Part shown: one piece after another, positions 2,565 to 7,144 of the stretch
How positions within the stretch are numbered: the stretch's first letter is position 1
How the letters are laid out: every line of letters starts with the position of its first letter
NCBI GenBank assembly: GCA_017553815.1
Contig: JAFZJT010000028.1
Coordinates: 1 to 11,375, forward strand
DNA length: 11,375 bases
Direction of reading: 5' to 3'
Source: Clostridia bacterium
GTDB lineage: Bacteria > Bacillota_A > Clostridia > Christensenellales > CAG-138
The notes under the pieces: generated by a model
Told to the model about the DNA's origin: nothing
Database searches by the model: none
Seen by the model: only the letters and a program-made list of their open reading frames with translations
Translations under genes and position numbers: made by a program

Positions 2565-3278
2565 CTATTTGATTTTGTATTCGGTCGAATTGATTATCAG
2601 ACATTCATCATCTTTCCAATAAATTTGAATATCGTCAAATTCGTCCCACTCTCCATAATAAACCCTTTGAGGCTTCTTTTCAATTTTGAAAAGAATGGCG
2701 TTTATTCCGCTTTTTTCATACACATCAATATGCGTATCTCCGCCGAGCGCACCTTGGTCGCTGTCTATCACTTGGGCATAATACTTTCCGCTTGGGGATT
2801 CAATCGTTTGGACGACCGTATTTTGACCGATATTGCCGAAAACCAAAGATATAAAGCTTATAAAGCAAATAGGTAATGCCATTATGGCATACAGTATTAA
2901 GGCAATTTTTCTAAGAACAAGCGGCTTGACATATTTGATCGTCAAATAAAAACAACATCCCGCAGATATTGATACACCCGCTATCACCGGGATTTCAGGA
3001 TACCCCACAATACAGAAAACTGCGTTAATTAGCGAGAAAAGCGAGATGACAGCCAACAAAATACGTAACGATCTGTTTTCAAGCGTATTTTTATAAATGA
3101 GGTCAAGGACAACGATACATACGGACAATACCGCAAGCGCAACAGCGAAAGCGGAAATACTGATCAATTTAAAACTATAACCAAAACAGGCTGTTATAAG
3201 AACACCTGCAGGATAAAGTGCTGTCAATATAAACAGCAACAATGTTAGAATAAATGCAACCTTTTTTATCCTATGCAC
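2565..3278 (-). CDS. Hypothetical five-helix membrane protein with extracytoplasmic C-terminal domain
   Basis: A 237-residue protein of unknown function. Hydrophobic segments lie at about 7-30, 38-61, 71-91, 96-114 and 123-147. A soluble tail (150-237) begins ESPSGKYYAQVIDSDQGALGG, a phrase I associate with conserved hypothetical proteins of Clostridia, possibly DUF5412-like; that family name is tentative. The start is GTG at 3278: no ATG exists in frame near the N-terminus, and AAGGA sits about 10 nt upstream. The stop is TAG, followed at once by a strong terminator. The gene is clearly AT-rich compared with the DUF445 gene and guaA, and it abuts the left boundary of the guaA-linked element, so it may be older acquired DNA at the same spot. 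No promoter stood out upstream. Confidence 0.75.
   Translation of the reverse strand: MHRIKKVAFILTLLLFILTALYPAGVLITACFGYSFKLISISAFAVALAVLSVCIVVLDLIYKNTLENRSLRILLAVISLFSLINAVFCIVGYPEIPVIAGVSISAGCCFYLTIKYVKPLVLRKIALILYAIMALPICFISFISLVFGNIGQNTVVQTIESPSGKYYAQVIDSDQGALGGDTHIDVYEKSGINAILFKIEKKPQRVYYGEWDEFDDIQIYWKDDECLIINSTEYKIK
3006..3024 (-). repeat. 19-bp inverted repeat, right copy (inside a gene)
   Basis: This is the exact inverted partner of 2454-2472. Here it encodes the AVFCIV stretch of the third membrane segment of the 237-residue protein. Confidence 0.75.
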
Positions 3279-3328
3279 CTCATTCTTTTCCTTGCATTTT
3301 ATTATTTACAAGGCTTTTTAACGCTTTG

Positions 3329-3345
3329 GGATTATTCCCACTCTA
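3329..3345 (+). repeat. Left attachment-site-like repeat (duplicate of guaA 3' end)
   Basis: GGATTATTCCCACTCTA matches 5021-5037 in the same orientation at 16 of 17 positions, 12 of them contiguous (ATTCCCACTCTA). Read on the minus strand it gives Val-Glu-Trp-Glu-TAA, and the real guaA ends Ile-Glu-Trp-Glu-TGA. This is what a recombinase targeting the guaA 3' end would leave as the distal att site. Confidence 0.6.
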
Positions 3346-3443
3346 CTGCACTTAACACTTTTTGTTTATGAATTGTGTTTCGTGCTGCACAGCGTGTCTT
3401 TGACTACTCATATTGTCCGTACTATCCTACCTTGCCGCCGCGA

Positions 3444-3474
3444 TGTTATCAATTTGTTATCAGCGTTGATAACA
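3444..3474 (+). repeat. 31-bp direct repeat flanking the HNH gene, left copy
   Basis: It comprises three copies of an 8-bp unit: TGTTATCA at 3444 and 3455 (11-bp period), then TGATAACA inverted at 3467. It matches 4921-4951 at 28 of 31 positions. The inner 20 bp, TGTTATCAGCGTTGATAACA, is the exact reverse complement of 4932-4951. Candidate binding site for a recombinase or regulator. Confidence 0.8.
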
Positions 3475-3482
3475 GGGATAAT

Positions 3483-3496
3483 TGTATAGGTATACA
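3483..3496. repeat. 14-bp palindrome downstream of the HNH gene
   Basis: TGTATAGGTATACA has 6-bp arms around GG. It sits between the HNH stop codon and the left 31-bp repeat. Function unknown. Confidence 0.4.
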
Positions 3497-3504
3497 CGGT
3501 AACT

Positions 3505-4773
3505 TTACTTGTTCAGTTTATCATATAACTTACGATAGAGAGCAAATGGCTCCTTCCAGTCTTCATAATATTTTAGGATAACACTCATCGATGGTAGCCC
3601 CAGTTTGCTCAATTCCTTTGCTGCTGGTATTTCCTTTCCTGACTTTATCCATTCTGCGACTGCGTCATCCACTTCTTGTTTTGTATATTTTGCTTTTTTG
3701 CTTTGCTTTACAGTAATATTATACTTATTGCAAAAAGCAGGAAAAGAGCCAAATCGTTTATGTATTGTAGACGGCGAATAAGGAAATGATTCAAAGAATT
3801 GTTTCATTGAATCAACTACGCGCTCATTATCTCCGAAATACAAACTAACAGCATTTTCAATTTCTGTCTCTGATATGAAATCATTTTTTTGCGTTATTTG
3901 TGACCCGACCGCTTGCTGATAGGCGGCAAGTGATCCAAAGAAATTATAAACAATTTTCGATGTGGGAAGATTGTTCTCTGCTCGCAAACTGCTTTCAGTT
4001 ATCTTTCCATGCATTGCTACATAGTCTTTTCCTGCCTTTAACACGCTCTGGTAATCCCAATTTGGACGAACAGCCAAGCCAAGCATTTTTTTCTTAATAT
4101 CTGTAAAGTTCTTATACTCCGGAAAATAACTTAAAATGCACGGAAGTGAAGGAAGCTTGTTTTTCTTTGTCAAATCTTTTTGTAATATATCACCGTGTTC
4201 TTCAACATATGTTTCCAAGGTTGTTTTAATTGTCTCTCTATCCCAGTTAGCTGATAAATCTTCAACCCCAAATGTATTTTTTAATGTACGTAAATCTCCA
4301 TAGTACTTTTTTACAAAGTGGATTGAAGGCAAATGATTATACTCCCGACCAAAATCGACCTTGTGAATATCTCCTTTTCTACAAATAAAGTCTAAAATGA
4401 TCTTATCGAATGCCTCTTTTGACATACTGTCTTGCGGTTGTTCGGCACATTCCGACAAAGAATCACCACTCAATTTCTGCCCGGGCATCATATCAGTTAT
4501 ACCTGCAAAGAATCGCTTTGCTTGCTCCTCCAACAAAAAGTCTTGCAACTCTTTATCATTCTTTTTTAGATTGCAGTTAATACAGAGTATTTGGCAGTTG
4601 TCTGCCGTCGATTTTCCGCCTTTTGCAAATGGGAAAATATGATCAAAATGACACTCGTTGATTGATGAAAGCTTCACACCACAGATTGCACAGTGTATTG
4701 CACCATTGTTATTCCTAAGGTTTTCTGTGATTGCACTTAACTTGACAGAATCCGAAAAGCCTCTGTTTGCCAT
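3505..4773 (-). CDS. HNH endonuclease with five homing-endonuclease-associated-type repeats
   Basis: A 422-residue predicted DNA endonuclease. The N-terminal HNH domain has paired zinc cysteines C28/C31 and C64/C67. The catalytic HxDH is at 42-45 (H42, D44, H45), with N59 and a CxxCN-type end at 64-68. After a linker (about 76-118) come five divergent modules of 50-55 residues at about 121-171, 176-233, 238-291, 301-353 and 363-416. Each has a helix, a short acidic or polar turn, then a (L)PS-x3-(I/V)-x-(K/Y)-(Y/F)(F/Y)G-like segment and a closing helix. This matches the homing-endonuclease-associated repeat (HNH_repeat) pattern, thought to bind DNA. I took the ATG at 4773, which has GGAGG 5 nt upstream; a TTG at 4785 lies within that ribosome site. 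A sigma-A promoter lies at 4848-4876. AT-rich and flanked by repeats, it is probably mobile or selfish. A defence role is the alternative. Confidence 0.82.
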   Translation of the reverse strand: MANRGFSDSVKLSAITENLRNNNGAIHCAICGVKLSSINECHFDHIFPFAKGGKSTADNCQILCINCNLKKNDKELQDFLLEEQAKRFFAGITDMMPGQKLSGDSLSECAEQPQDSMSKEAFDKIILDFICRKGDIHKVDFGREYNHLPSIHFVKKYYGDLRTLKNTFGVEDLSANWDRETIKTTLETYVEEHGDILQKDLTKKNKLPSLPCILSYFPEYKNFTDIKKKMLGLAVRPNWDYQSVLKAGKDYVAMHGKITESSLRAENNLPTSKIVYNFFGSLAAYQQAVGSQITQKNDFISETEIENAVSLYFGDNERVVDSMKQFFESFPYSPSTIHKRFGSFPAFCNKYNITVKQSKKAKYTKQEVDDAVAEWIKSGKEIPAAKELSKLGLPSMSVILKYYEDWKEPFALYRKLYDKLNK

Positions 4774-4847
4774 ATAAACCTCCAAATGTTTCCTAATTTA
4801 TATAAACAGCAATAAAACGCAGTATGTTAACAATGCCGATTATAATT

Positions 4848-4876
4848 ACTATATCATTTGATTGATGCGTTGTCAA
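4848..4876 (-). promoter_or_regulatory. Promoter of the HNH endonuclease gene
   Basis: Minus-strand TTGACA (4871-4876), 17-nt spacer, TATAGT (4848-4853). This is a near-consensus sigma-A promoter, giving a leader of about 65-70 nt to the ATG at 4773. The right 31-bp repeat lies about 45 bp upstream of the -35, close enough for a bound protein to affect it. Confidence 0.7.
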
Positions 4877-4920
4877 TGTTTACAGATGCGGTTTTGGATA
4901 ACTCTCGTAATTAACTATAC

Positions 4921-4951
4921 TGTTATCAAATTGTTATCAACGCTGATAACA
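4921..4951 (+). repeat. 31-bp direct repeat flanking the HNH gene, right copy
   Basis: Same three-unit layout as 3444-3474: TGTTATCA at 4921 and 4932, and inverted TGATAACA at 4944. The core TGTTATCAACGCTGATAACA is a hairpin with a 4-nt loop and is the exact reverse complement of the left core. Confidence 0.8.
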
Positions 4952-4956
4952 AGAAG

Positions 4957-4983
4957 TAGCAGGCACTCCGAAGAATGCCTGCT
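4957..4983 (-). terminator. Hairpin downstream of guaA, probable terminator
   Basis: The minus-strand transcript folds AGCAGGCAUUC / GAGUGCCUGCU, eleven pairs closing a UUCG tetraloop, followed by ACUUCUUG. The U-tract is poor, but position and stability fit termination of guaA. It lies inside the putative element, so the element may have supplied it. Confidence 0.55.
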
Positions 4984-5020
4984 GTTTAGGATAATTCAGT
5001 ACATTTCAAGCTGAAAATGT

Positions 5021-5037
5021 GGATCATTCCCACTCTA
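5021..5037 (+). repeat. Right attachment-site-like repeat (native guaA 3' end)
   Basis: GGATCATTCCCACTCTA covers the guaA stop (TGA, 5024-5026) and the codons for the terminal Ile-Glu-Trp-Glu. It is a direct repeat of 3329-3345. Just outside it, 5001-5020 forms an imperfect inverted repeat (ACATTTCA / TGAAAATGT). Confidence 0.6.
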
Positions 5038-6007
5038 TCGTTCCGGTAGGTTTGGGCGTAAGGTCGAACAGGACGCGATTGACGCCTTTGACTTCGTTCG
5101 TGATGCGCTCGGTGATGCGGCAGAGCAGTTCAAAGGGCACGTTTTCCACGGTGGCGGTCATCGCGTCGCGGGTATTTACGGCGCGCAGGATGACGGGCCA
5201 TTCGTCGCAGCGCTTGCCGTCCTTTATGCCGACAGACTTAAAATCGGGGACGGCGGTGAAATACTGCCATACTTTGCCCTCAAGACCGGCATTTGCGAAC
5301 TCTTCACGCAATATCGCGTCGCTCTCGCGCACGGCTTCGAGCCTGTCGCGGGTGATTGCGCCGAGGCAGCGCACGCCGAGACCGGGGCCCGGGAAGGGCT
5401 GGCGGTAGACCATACCGTGGGGAAGTCCCAGAGCCTCGCCGACCACGCGCACCTCGTCCTTAAAGAGGATGCGAACGGGCTCGACCAGTTCAAAATCGAG
5501 ATCATCCGGCAGACCGCCGGCGTTGTGGTGCGCCTTGATGCCGTGATCGCTCTCAAGGATATCTGGCCATATCGTGCCCTGCGCAAGGAAATGGATGCCG
5601 TCGAGTTTACGGGCTTCCTCGGCGAAAACTTCGATGAATTCGCCGCCGATTATCTTGCGCTTGGTCTCGGGATCGGCAACGCCAGCGAGCTTGTCGAGGA
5701 AGCGATCCACCGCGTCAACATAGATGAGGTTAGCATCCATTTCGTCCTTAAAAACGCGGATGACCTGCTCGGGCTCGCCCTTGCGCAAAAGACCGTGGTT
5801 TACGTGCACGCAAACGAGCTGTTTGCCGATGGCCTTGATAAGAAGCGCCGCAACGACGGACGAATCAACGCCGCCGGAGAGGGCAAGAAGGACCTTTTTA
5901 TCACCGACCTGTGCGCGAATATCCGCGATCTGCTCGGCAATGAAGGCTTCGGCAAGCGCCTGGTTGGTGATGCGCTCCATATTTTCGGGTCTTGTAAGAA
6001 TTGGCAT
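5024..6007 (-). CDS. guaA: GMP synthase, ATP pyrophosphatase subunit/domain only
   Basis: Catalyses the last step to GMP: XMP is adenylylated with ATP and aminated. This 327-residue protein contains only the ATP-pyrophosphatase domain (PP-loop SGGVDSS at 44-50) and the C-terminal dimerisation domain (QPFPGPGLGVRCLG motif; end PTGTIEWE). The N-terminal class I glutamine amidotransferase domain of ordinary bacterial GuaA (about 510-525 residues in all) is absent, as in archaeal two-subunit enzymes. The amidotransferase partner is not in this window. I chose the ATG at 6007, which has GGAGG 8 nt upstream; the in-frame ATG at 6022 lies before that site and has none. The clean short N-terminus (MPILTRPENM) suggests a naturally single-domain gene and not a fresh truncation. 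Its 3' end serves as the apparent insertion site of the HNH element. Confidence 0.9.
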   Translation of the reverse strand: MPILTRPENMERITNQALAEAFIAEQIADIRAQVGDKKVLLALSGGVDSSVVAALLIKAIGKQLVCVHVNHGLLRKGEPEQVIRVFKDEMDANLIYVDAVDRFLDKLAGVADPETKRKIIGGEFIEVFAEEARKLDGIHFLAQGTIWPDILESDHGIKAHHNAGGLPDDLDFELVEPVRILFKDEVRVVGEALGLPHGMVYRQPFPGPGLGVRCLGAITRDRLEAVRESDAILREEFANAGLEGKVWQYFTAVPDFKSVGIKDGKRCDEWPVILRAVNTRDAMTATVENVPFELLCRITERITNEVKGVNRVLFDLTPKPTGTIEWE

Positions 6008-6036
6008 AGGTTTATCCTCCATAAAAAATCAGCGTT

Positions 6037-6225: not shown

Positions 6226-6249
6226 GATGCTGTGCTAAGAAAACTTGGC
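6201..6249 (+). promoter_or_regulatory. Candidate XRE operators (two 13-bp direct repeats)
   Basis: AAGAAAACTTGGC occurs at 6202-6214, inside the promoter spacer, and again at 6237-6249, just past the start of transcription (35-bp period). The first copy with its preceding C forms the palindrome CAAGAAAACTTG. The placement suits repression by the XRE protein of the same operon. Binding is inferred. Confidence 0.55.
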
Positions 6250-6271
6250 AACACTTCAGGAGGCTTTACGT

Positions 6272-6616
6272 ATGAACAAAGAAGATATTTTAGAAAGAAG
6301 CAGGCAAGAGAACAAAGGCAAACCGGATGAGTTTGAAGTTATGGCTTTTGGTAAAGCTTCACGCATGGGAATGCTTGTTGGCGCAGTAATCTGTATGATA
6401 CTTGTTATCGTTAGCAGATGGGTAATAGATAGACCGGAACTCGCTTTGGCAAGTTGGATGATTTATATGGCTATGCAAGGAGCAAGCAATATCGTCCTGT
6501 ATAAGCATTTGAAGAGACAAGAGAAATTGATTTCTGCAATAGTATGCACGGGGTTCGCCATACTATTCGCTGTTGCTTTTGTGTATGCTATCTATTTGTA
6601 TAAAGCGGGTATGTAA
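6272..6616 (+). CDS. Small three-helix membrane protein, DUF6442-like
   Basis: A 114-residue protein of unknown function, first gene of a three-gene cassette. The N-terminus (MNKEDILERSRQENK) is the charged signature I associate with DUF6442 proteins. Hydrophobic segments follow at about 32-50, 57-76 and 88-109. The start at 6272 has AGGAGG 8 nt upstream; the open frame before it (from a TTG at 6245) has no ribosome site. It ends one base before the XRE start, so the two are probably translationally coupled. In Firmicutes, small membrane proteins paired with an XRE regulator are a recurrent arrangement. Their role is unknown, with sensing or an envelope-linked toxin/antitoxin-like function among the possibilities. 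AT-rich relative to guaA. Confidence 0.75.
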   Translation: MNKEDILERSRQENKGKPDEFEVMAFGKASRMGMLVGAVICMILVIVSRWVIDRPELALASWMIYMAMQGASNIVLYKHLKRQEKLISAIVCTGFAILFAVAFVYAIYLYKAGM

Positions 6617-6617
6617 G

Positions 6618-6824
6618 ATGGAAAACGGACTCATCTTAAAAAACAGATTGAAAGAATACCGAACCGAGGCTGGTCTTTCGCAGCAACAGTTAGCGGATTT
6701 GGTAGGCGTATCTCGCAACACGATCAGTTCTATTGAAACCGGACAATTCAATCCGACTGCAAAACTGGCATTGATCCTATGCATTGCATTGGATAAAAAG
6801 TTTGAAGAATTATTCTATTTCTAA
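6618..6824 (+). CDS. XRE-family helix-turn-helix regulator
   Basis: A 68-residue single-domain DNA-binding protein. The helix-turn-helix lies at about 20-41 (LSQQQLADLVGVSRNTISSIE), followed by the usual helix GQFNPTAKLALILCIAL and a short end, DKKFEELFYF. This is the compact YgzD/Cro-type architecture with no effector domain. The start is ATG 6618, one base after the preceding stop and without a strong ribosome site, consistent with coupling to the upstream membrane protein. Likely an autorepressor acting on the strong promoter at 6197-6225 through the repeated 13-bp sites; this is inferred from layout, since small XRE proteins commonly autoregulate. Confidence 0.85.
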   Translation: MENGLILKNRLKEYRTEAGLSQQQLADLVGVSRNTISSIETGQFNPTAKLALILCIALDKKFEELFYF

Positions 6825-6841
6825 AAAATCGGAGGTTAAAT

Positions 6842-7144
6842 ATGGAAAACATTGTATTACTGCTATTGGGACTTGCTATTTCAGCAATCGGCATTATGAA
6901 TATCAAAGGCAACATCAACACTGTTCATTCCTACAATCGACGAAAAGTTAAAGAAGAGGATAAACCCAAGTACGGAAAAACAATCGGTGCCGGAACTTTA
7001 ATCATCGGTATCGCTCTTATCTTGTCATTCGTTGTTTCGCTTTGGAACGAAAGTGCAATGGCTTATGTTGTGGCACCGGGAATTGTTGTCGGGTTAGTGA
7101 TTATCCTATATGGTCAGTTCAAGTATAACCGCGGCATATTCTAA
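6842..7144 (+). CDS. Small three-helix membrane protein of unknown function
   Basis: A 100-residue protein, third gene of the cassette. Hydrophobic segments lie at about 3-19, 48-67 and 74-92. A basic loop after the first helix reads HSYNRRKVKEEDKPKYGK, reminiscent of small DUF3784-type proteins, but I do not claim membership. The start at 6842 has GGAGG 6 nt upstream, 17 bp after the XRE stop. Co-transcription with the DUF6442-like gene and the XRE regulator is very likely. A functional link between the two membrane proteins is plausible but unproven. No clear terminator follows. Confidence 0.75.
   Translation: MENIVLLLLGLAISAIGIMNIKGNINTVHSYNRRKVKEEDKPKYGKTIGAGTLIIGIALILSFVVSLWNESAMAYVVAPGIVVGLVIILYGQFKYNRGIF

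Follow-up and report, generated by a model that had tools for sequence, protein, structure and literature searches.

The guaA gene and the adjoining unit

The window (the whole stretch of DNA that was analysed, 11,375 nt; L-numbers denote loci and G-numbers genomes) contains a guaA-type gene of 332 aa on the reverse strand (5024..6022), the 3′ end of which is the integration site described here. Matches to Pfam GMP_synt_C and TIGR00884 confirmed the guaA-type assignment of the original prediction, but only the ATP-pyrophosphatase domain of GMP synthase is encoded; the glutaminase half is missing. A direct repeat had been predicted across the guaA stop codon and about 1.7 kb away, and proved to be real. 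The two 17-bp cores, GGATTATTCCCACTCTA at 3329–3345 (distal core) and GGATCATTCCCACTCTA at 5021–5037 (proximal core, at the guaA stop), are identical at 16 of 17 positions, share ATTCCCACTCTA exactly and lie in direct orientation with a spacing of 1,692 bp, start to start. Two core matches were obtained in none of 200 dinucleotide shuffles. The Glu-Trp-Glu-stop expected at both boundaries could also be read, as GAG TGG GAA followed by TGA in the guaA copy and by TAA in the distal copy.

Only one long frame is present between the cores, as had been proposed. It encodes an intact HNH endonuclease-like protein of 422 aa (3505..4773, reverse strand) with one match to HNH_repeat (homing endonuclease associated repeat), while the other listed frames between the cores are 65–81 aa long and lie on the opposite strand. 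The HNH gene was the only cargo gene recognised in the unit, and the Pfam matches of its product were all of HNH type. By eye, it is preceded by GGAGG and by a promoter-like TTGACA-N17-TATAGT (4848..4876, reverse strand). The GC content was 0.36–0.37 in the 600-bp blocks from 3601 to 4800, as against 0.57 in the block 5401–6000. An Rfam scan at the gathering threshold and a tRNA scan of the window gave no match.

Two further features of the window were observed outside the unit. A perfect 19-nt inverted repeat, CGCAGTTTTCTGTATTGTG, is located at 2454–2472 and 3006–3024, one copy lying within a DUF5412-like frame (2565–3278). Upstream of guaA, a small AT-rich group (6245–7144) comprises a DUF6442 protein, an XRE-type regulator and a DUF3784-like membrane protein, and may be another acquired unit.

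Arm sites and ends of the unit

Inside each core, a 31-bp arm-type repeat, TGTTATCAAWTTGTTATCARCGYTGATAACA, was found that had been missed in the earlier reading. Its distal copy (3444..3474) and its proximal copy (4921..4951), the latter with the code TTGATAACA, are 90% identical, and the repeat contains a perfect 21-nt inverted pair; two matches occurred in none of 200 shuffles. The arms are of the GATAACA type at both ends. Tyrosine-recombinase attachment sites are laid out in this way, with arm sites flanking a core. The guaA-proximal end, LE-B (4921..5020), consists of a hairpin AGCAGGCA..TGCCTGCT at about 4958–4983 (by eye), followed by the arm sites. The distal end, RE (3329..3476, reverse strand), is about 147 bp long and comprises arm sites, 98 bp and the core; ends related to it occur in other genomes. 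The distal flank (3301..3328) carries a degenerate hairpin-like motif, AAAAAGCCTTGTAAATA, which resembles the start of other guaA elements. A 49-bp match to L001 spans the distal core and extends beyond it, and this flank is possibly left over from a second element adjoining the unit.

A hairpin-like motif AAACCC-GCATAAATACT-GGGTTT was observed by eye, in either orientation, just after the guaA stop at L004, L014, L019, L040 and other loci. Many guaA elements begin with this motif, which may act as a terminator or belong to the attachment site.

Ends resembling LE-B were found at L111 and L211–L214. BLAST detected RE-type ends in 9 of 103 family genomes, and a profile (E ≤ 1e-6) did so in 22 of 391 class-sample genomes, the loci of all but three of these 22 (G943, G1046 and G495) being viewed. 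Matches below 20 bits or stopping short of the core were excluded, so that L187 and L192, two of 20 regions, show no RE. Four of 80 guaA loci carry an RE (L001, L040, L071 and L076), many of the 80 having little sequence behind guaA. The left end of L111 gave matches in 11 of the 103 family genomes; most of its length was matched in only four (G209 itself, G857, G016 and G886), the remaining matches being to the arm sites only.

Cargo genes between related ends

The closest guaA relative found, L001, is from a goat abomasum Clostridia MAG (GuaA 96% identical in amino acid sequence). At the same place it carries an 834-aa AAA_13 ATPase (PADLOC PDC-S06, E 2e-40); its distal end is 93% identical to that of the window over 174 bp, and its left end is IME-like with one arm site lost. 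In L111 (genome G209; GuaA 92%), a window-type left end is followed by a frame without Pfam match, which we read as phosphotransferase-like, and then by an RE. G209 possesses both a half-length and a full-length guaA, with the integrase-less element behind the half-length gene (L111) and an integrase behind the full-length gene (L249). Elements were observed behind guaA of both lengths (window, L111, L247, L249 and L250).

Other cargo adjoining an RE included Eco57I-type methylase, GmrSD_N and HEPN genes (L113) and type III restriction-modification genes (L116), the left end not being seen in either case. Cargo that is not defence-like was also present, i.e. a surface-protein-like frame (L117, by eye), a methyltransferase (L071) and a kinase-LRR protein (L176). 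In L117, the left end is IME-like and is followed by no integrase. Tandem arrays were found in L111, L112, L183 and L214.

When nine REs were compared, the RE of the window was 94% identical to that of L001, which has AAA cargo, and 63% identical to that of L214, which has HNH cargo. The RE of L214 was 92% identical to its neighbour's and 89% identical to one in G372. As far as is known, the ends seem to track host relatedness, and the cargo to cross between ends, for which recombination within tandem arrays would be the simplest cause.

Integrase-bearing relatives

No integrase was matched inside the window with a home-made profile. Among nine fetched loci with guaA and a following RE, the same profile, applied to frames of at least 70 aa, showed no integrase between the two in seven (window, L001, L071, L076, L111, L117 and L191) and an integrase in two (L040 and L180); the sample is not random, and seven of the nine REs had trained the RE profile. 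Five RE-to-RE segments of arrays (two in L183 and one each in L176, L185 and L111) were also devoid of an integrase, some of their REs being weak (22–47 bits). Integrases on the guaA strand, 0.9–1.8 kb behind guaA, were full-length in 9 of 80 guaA loci (L004, L022, L034, L040, L042, L057, L065, L069 and L072) and partial in two (L019 and L080); opposite-strand matches (L015, L031, L047 and L062) were not scored as guaA-linked. The best 60 pairwise identities among guaA-linked integrases, including the copy of L112, ranged from 56 to 84%. The guaA-proximal arm pairs read GATAACA (L019, L042), GGCAAC(A/G) (L040, L057, L065, L072, L080), GATAGCA (L034, L069), GACAACA (L004) or GGTACTA (L022).

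The 8.7-kb element of L180 has GATAACA arms at both ends. Besides its integrase, it encodes a Mob_Pre relaxase and an AAA_25 protein; further frames, assigned by likeness only, are a regulator, an HTH frame of excisionase type, a NikA-like frame and cargo that resembles resistance genes. Mob_Pre is found in L040 too, along with NikA-like and HTH genes. The arms of L040 are GGCAACA on the left and GATAACA on the right, indicating that mixed ends exist. Judged from their genes, the autonomous members of the guaA-specific family are predicted to be IMEs that carry mobilization genes and a tyrosine integrase. The RE is common to the window and the integrase-bearing L180 and L040; a window-type left end was accompanied by an integrase in none of the six cases viewed, one of which ends at a contig edge. 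Matches to the integrase of L180 at E ≤ 1e-40 were obtained in 21 of 37 genomes, which had been chosen for RE or arm matches; some of these are fragments or only 40–54% identical. The other 16 genomes, all draft MAGs, gave no match at this threshold, G001 with its two RE ends among them.

Two side observations were made by eye. Between the relaxase frame and the RE of L180, ABC-F-like and nucleotidyltransferase-like frames resemble antibiotic-resistance genes. In the few integrase sequences compared (L042, L180, L040, L057, L065, L072 and L080), those with the N-terminal arm-binding domain KQKCKRGF pair with GATAACA arms, and those with KQ(T/S)(Q/S)KRGF or RQTQKRGF mostly with GGCAAC arms, L034 being an exception.

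Empty and occupied sites

A GNAT gene follows the RE core in L114/L217, L115/L221 and L214/L229, and lies directly behind guaA without an RE in L218 and L219 and likewise, at about 105 bp, in L224. The GNAT proteins of L217 and L218 are 99% identical; L217 reads RE-TCGAATGGGAGTAACGC-GNAT and L218 reads guaA-TCGAGTGGGAGTAACGC-GNAT, a contrast that indicates insertion exactly at the core. Of the 30 loci viewed, the remaining 24 showed neither arrangement right beside GNAT; one of these, L220, lacks an RE and has guaA about 1 kb upstream. No empty site was found for the distal flank of the window itself, and three neighbour proteins gave no match among the loci searched. The empty site called for by the original prediction was obtained elsewhere in the family (L218 and L219 compared with L217), but not for the flank of the window. 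L003 was considered as an empty site and rejected; behind its guaA lies a stretch that shares 97% identity, over 78 bp, with the one following the RE core in L112, so that L003 looks like the start of another element.

The HNH protein and a second HNH element

Of 7,998 scored candidates, 508 were relatives of the HNH protein at E ≤ 0.001; the 120 best of these are mostly 415–428 aa long. Homologues were present in 1 of 6, 1 of 396, 0 of 47 (a search run without positive control) and 5 of 394 genomes. Six of seven homologues were viewed, mostly by eye (L081–L086; 49–73% identity), and none was seen at guaA: L083 (73%) is located behind an aspS-like gene, L081 near tRNA-Leu, L084 and L086 near rRNA and tRNA genes, and L082 and L085 elsewhere. 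The seventh, L087, contains two internal stop codons. Direct repeats of at least 11 bp around the homologues were absent from L083, L084 and L085, and only 11-bp repeats were found in L081 and L086. A 25-bp direct repeat flanks the homologue in L082, which is possibly another kind of element.

With PADLOC, no full-length match to a described defence protein was obtained. The matches were confined to residues 28–80, i.e. the HNH motif, and a known defence system was rejected as the identity of the protein. IMG/VR viral contigs, searched with close relatives and two profile patterns, contained no relative; phage records gave one match and plasmid records two, all at 19% coverage and to the HNH motif only, and a phage satellite was likewise rejected. 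The AlphaFold2 model (mean pLDDT 78.8, pTM 0.33) had no PDB match at E ≤ 0.001 in Foldseek, HNH nucleases being among the weak matches.

A second HNH element was found in L214 of genome G890, on a contig from which guaA is absent. The order is the neighbour's RE and core, a window-type left end (34.7 bits) with a degenerate arm site, HNH, RE, core and the GNAT gene. It is 82.8% identical to the window over 1,454 bp, an alignment that opens shortly ahead of the HNH start and runs to the RE core, and the HNH gene ends about 30 bp from the RE in both known copies. The two HNH proteins are identical at 361 of 422 residues (86%), with dN 0.078 and dS 0.80 (dN/dS about 0.1), indicating that the gene has been kept by selection. 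The HNH protein is maintained cargo, most simply a nuclease of restriction or defence type. G890 also contains two matches to the integrase of L180, both 77% identical. One of them, with the arms TTTGATAACGAATTGATAACA (GATAAC-type) and an XRE-like gene, lies behind a guaA that is 90% identical to the window's; relaxase-like and RepA-like frames, named by likeness to L180, come after it. This integrase element lies on a different contig from the HNH element, and might belong to the same array or be located elsewhere. The home of the sister HNH element supplies a candidate helper integrase.

Interpretation of the unit

The unit is flanked by predicted attL and attR sites, with core repeats and arm sites at both ends and related ends elsewhere, and no recombination or transfer gene was recognised in it: HNH is the sole frame kept at 60 aa or more, there is no integrase match, and the own integrase and relaxase of an autonomous IME are both lacking. 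We regard it as an integrase-less integrative element, CIME-like, within a guaA-specific IME family, with a probability of roughly 0.7. The original prediction had suggested that an element had integrated at the 3′ end of guaA and, more specifically, that it is a satellite mobilised in trans or a remnant; both suggestions gained support from the other cargo between ends of the same kind and from the empty sites in the family. A guaA-type integrase would be borrowed from another element (in trans) or from an adjacent integrated one (accretion, in cis), and would recombine the two cores to excise a 1.7-kb circle. The circle would then insert at a guaA end, with restoration of the Glu-Trp-Glu-stop, while passage from cell to cell would need the help of a neighbouring IME or conjugative element, and HNH would ride as maintained cargo. 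We infer that mobilisation occurs, or once occurred, by accretion or in trans.

An immobile relic, i.e. an IME that lost its interior and retained its ends and one cargo gene without moving at present, would have the same anatomy and differ only in present mobility. It is a serious though less probable alternative, and the confidences of the two readings overlap. The lost arm site of L001 and the left end of L117 without integrase speak against the CIME-like element and show that plain decay occurs in the family; G001 has no match to a guaA-type integrase, and CIMEs are described as decayed elements in PMC5704250 and PMC7563491. In the window, however, arm sites and cores are retained at both ends, and the same HNH unit occurs in another genome with a different end background. 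The strong purifying selection on HNH points the same way, although selection on cargo does not require mobility. It is unlikely that HNH with a short flank is itself a module hopping between elements and landing beside RE ends, with the guaA unit merely as carrier. Such a module would fit the RE of the window resembling that of L001 far more than that of L214, and the latter resembling its neighbour's; the pattern would equally arise if tandem elements recombined in the ordinary way, the two HNH elements share one type of left end, and no empty HNH insertion point was identified.

Homing, in which HNH would cut empty guaA ends and repair would copy the unit in, is highly improbable, even though the protein combines an HNH domain with a homing-endonuclease-associated repeat and its gene ends close to the RE in both copies. 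A homing nuclease should be present wherever the site is occupied and be specific to that site; L001 and L111, which lack an HNH gene, occupy this site with the same kind of ends around different cargo, and the homologues of 49–73% identity lie at other loci. The junctions are explained by arm sites and integrase-bearing relatives. Entry by cutting of the empty guaA end, as originally envisaged, is thus unsupported. Relatives with both cores and no HNH gene had been named as evidence against the original prediction, and L001 and L111 are such relatives; they argue against HNH as the driver, but the element itself stands, its junctions being clean.

The CIME-like element offers a minimal case, open to testing, in which an att-bounded unit would depend on a borrowed integrase, and it places a selection-kept family of HNH-repeat nucleases in a guaA-island setting. 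The adjoining restriction-modification, GmrSD/HEPN and AAA_13 genes suggest that short cargo units accumulate at the guaA ends of these Clostridia. Rather speculatively, the integrase-less guaA cassettes of gut Clostridia might form a self-perpetuating class with conserved ends instead of mere decay products. They would be moved in trans by guaA-type integrases with a matching arm code (GATAACA and others), swap individual cargo genes, of which several are defence-like, and form arrays at half- and full-length guaA ends.

Comparison with known systems

Both CIMEs and guaA as an IME site are already in print, in PMC5704250 and PMC7563491. No guaA-targeting integrase-less element of gut Clostridia was named in the literature searched (titles and abstract openings, subscription journals lying mostly outside the search). 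ATE-1, GIsul2 and an IncP island are listed in PMC5704250 as IMEs with tyrosine integrases and the guaA 3′ end as target. The present family likewise has a tyrosine integrase and targets the end of guaA; the listed elements differ from the window unit in having an integrase, and their likeness to the integrases found here is by type and target only. The Dehalococcoides ssrA islands are in tandem, bounded by the repeat of one gene end, and have an integration module in 16 of 31 cases (PMC3146451). They differ in using a serine recombinase and a tmRNA target. In CALIN arrays and MITEs, attC sites or transposon ends are present instead of core and arm sites. Both are units without their own integrase or transposase that are moved in trans by a related enzyme, according to PMC11389934. 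The CIMEs of Streptococcus lack integration and transfer genes, have kept attL and attR, form tandem arrays and, in the classical cases, measure 1.2–13 kb, as given in PMC5704250 and PMC7563491. The unit in the window also lacks integration and transfer genes and has kept attL and attR, and arrays occur in its relatives. It differs in its host group and in its type of left end, which never came with an integrase in six cases viewed, one of them truncated by the end of a contig. In contrast to the Streptococcus CIMEs, the cargo here changes between similar ends, and this exchange of cargo between conserved ends is the interesting part.
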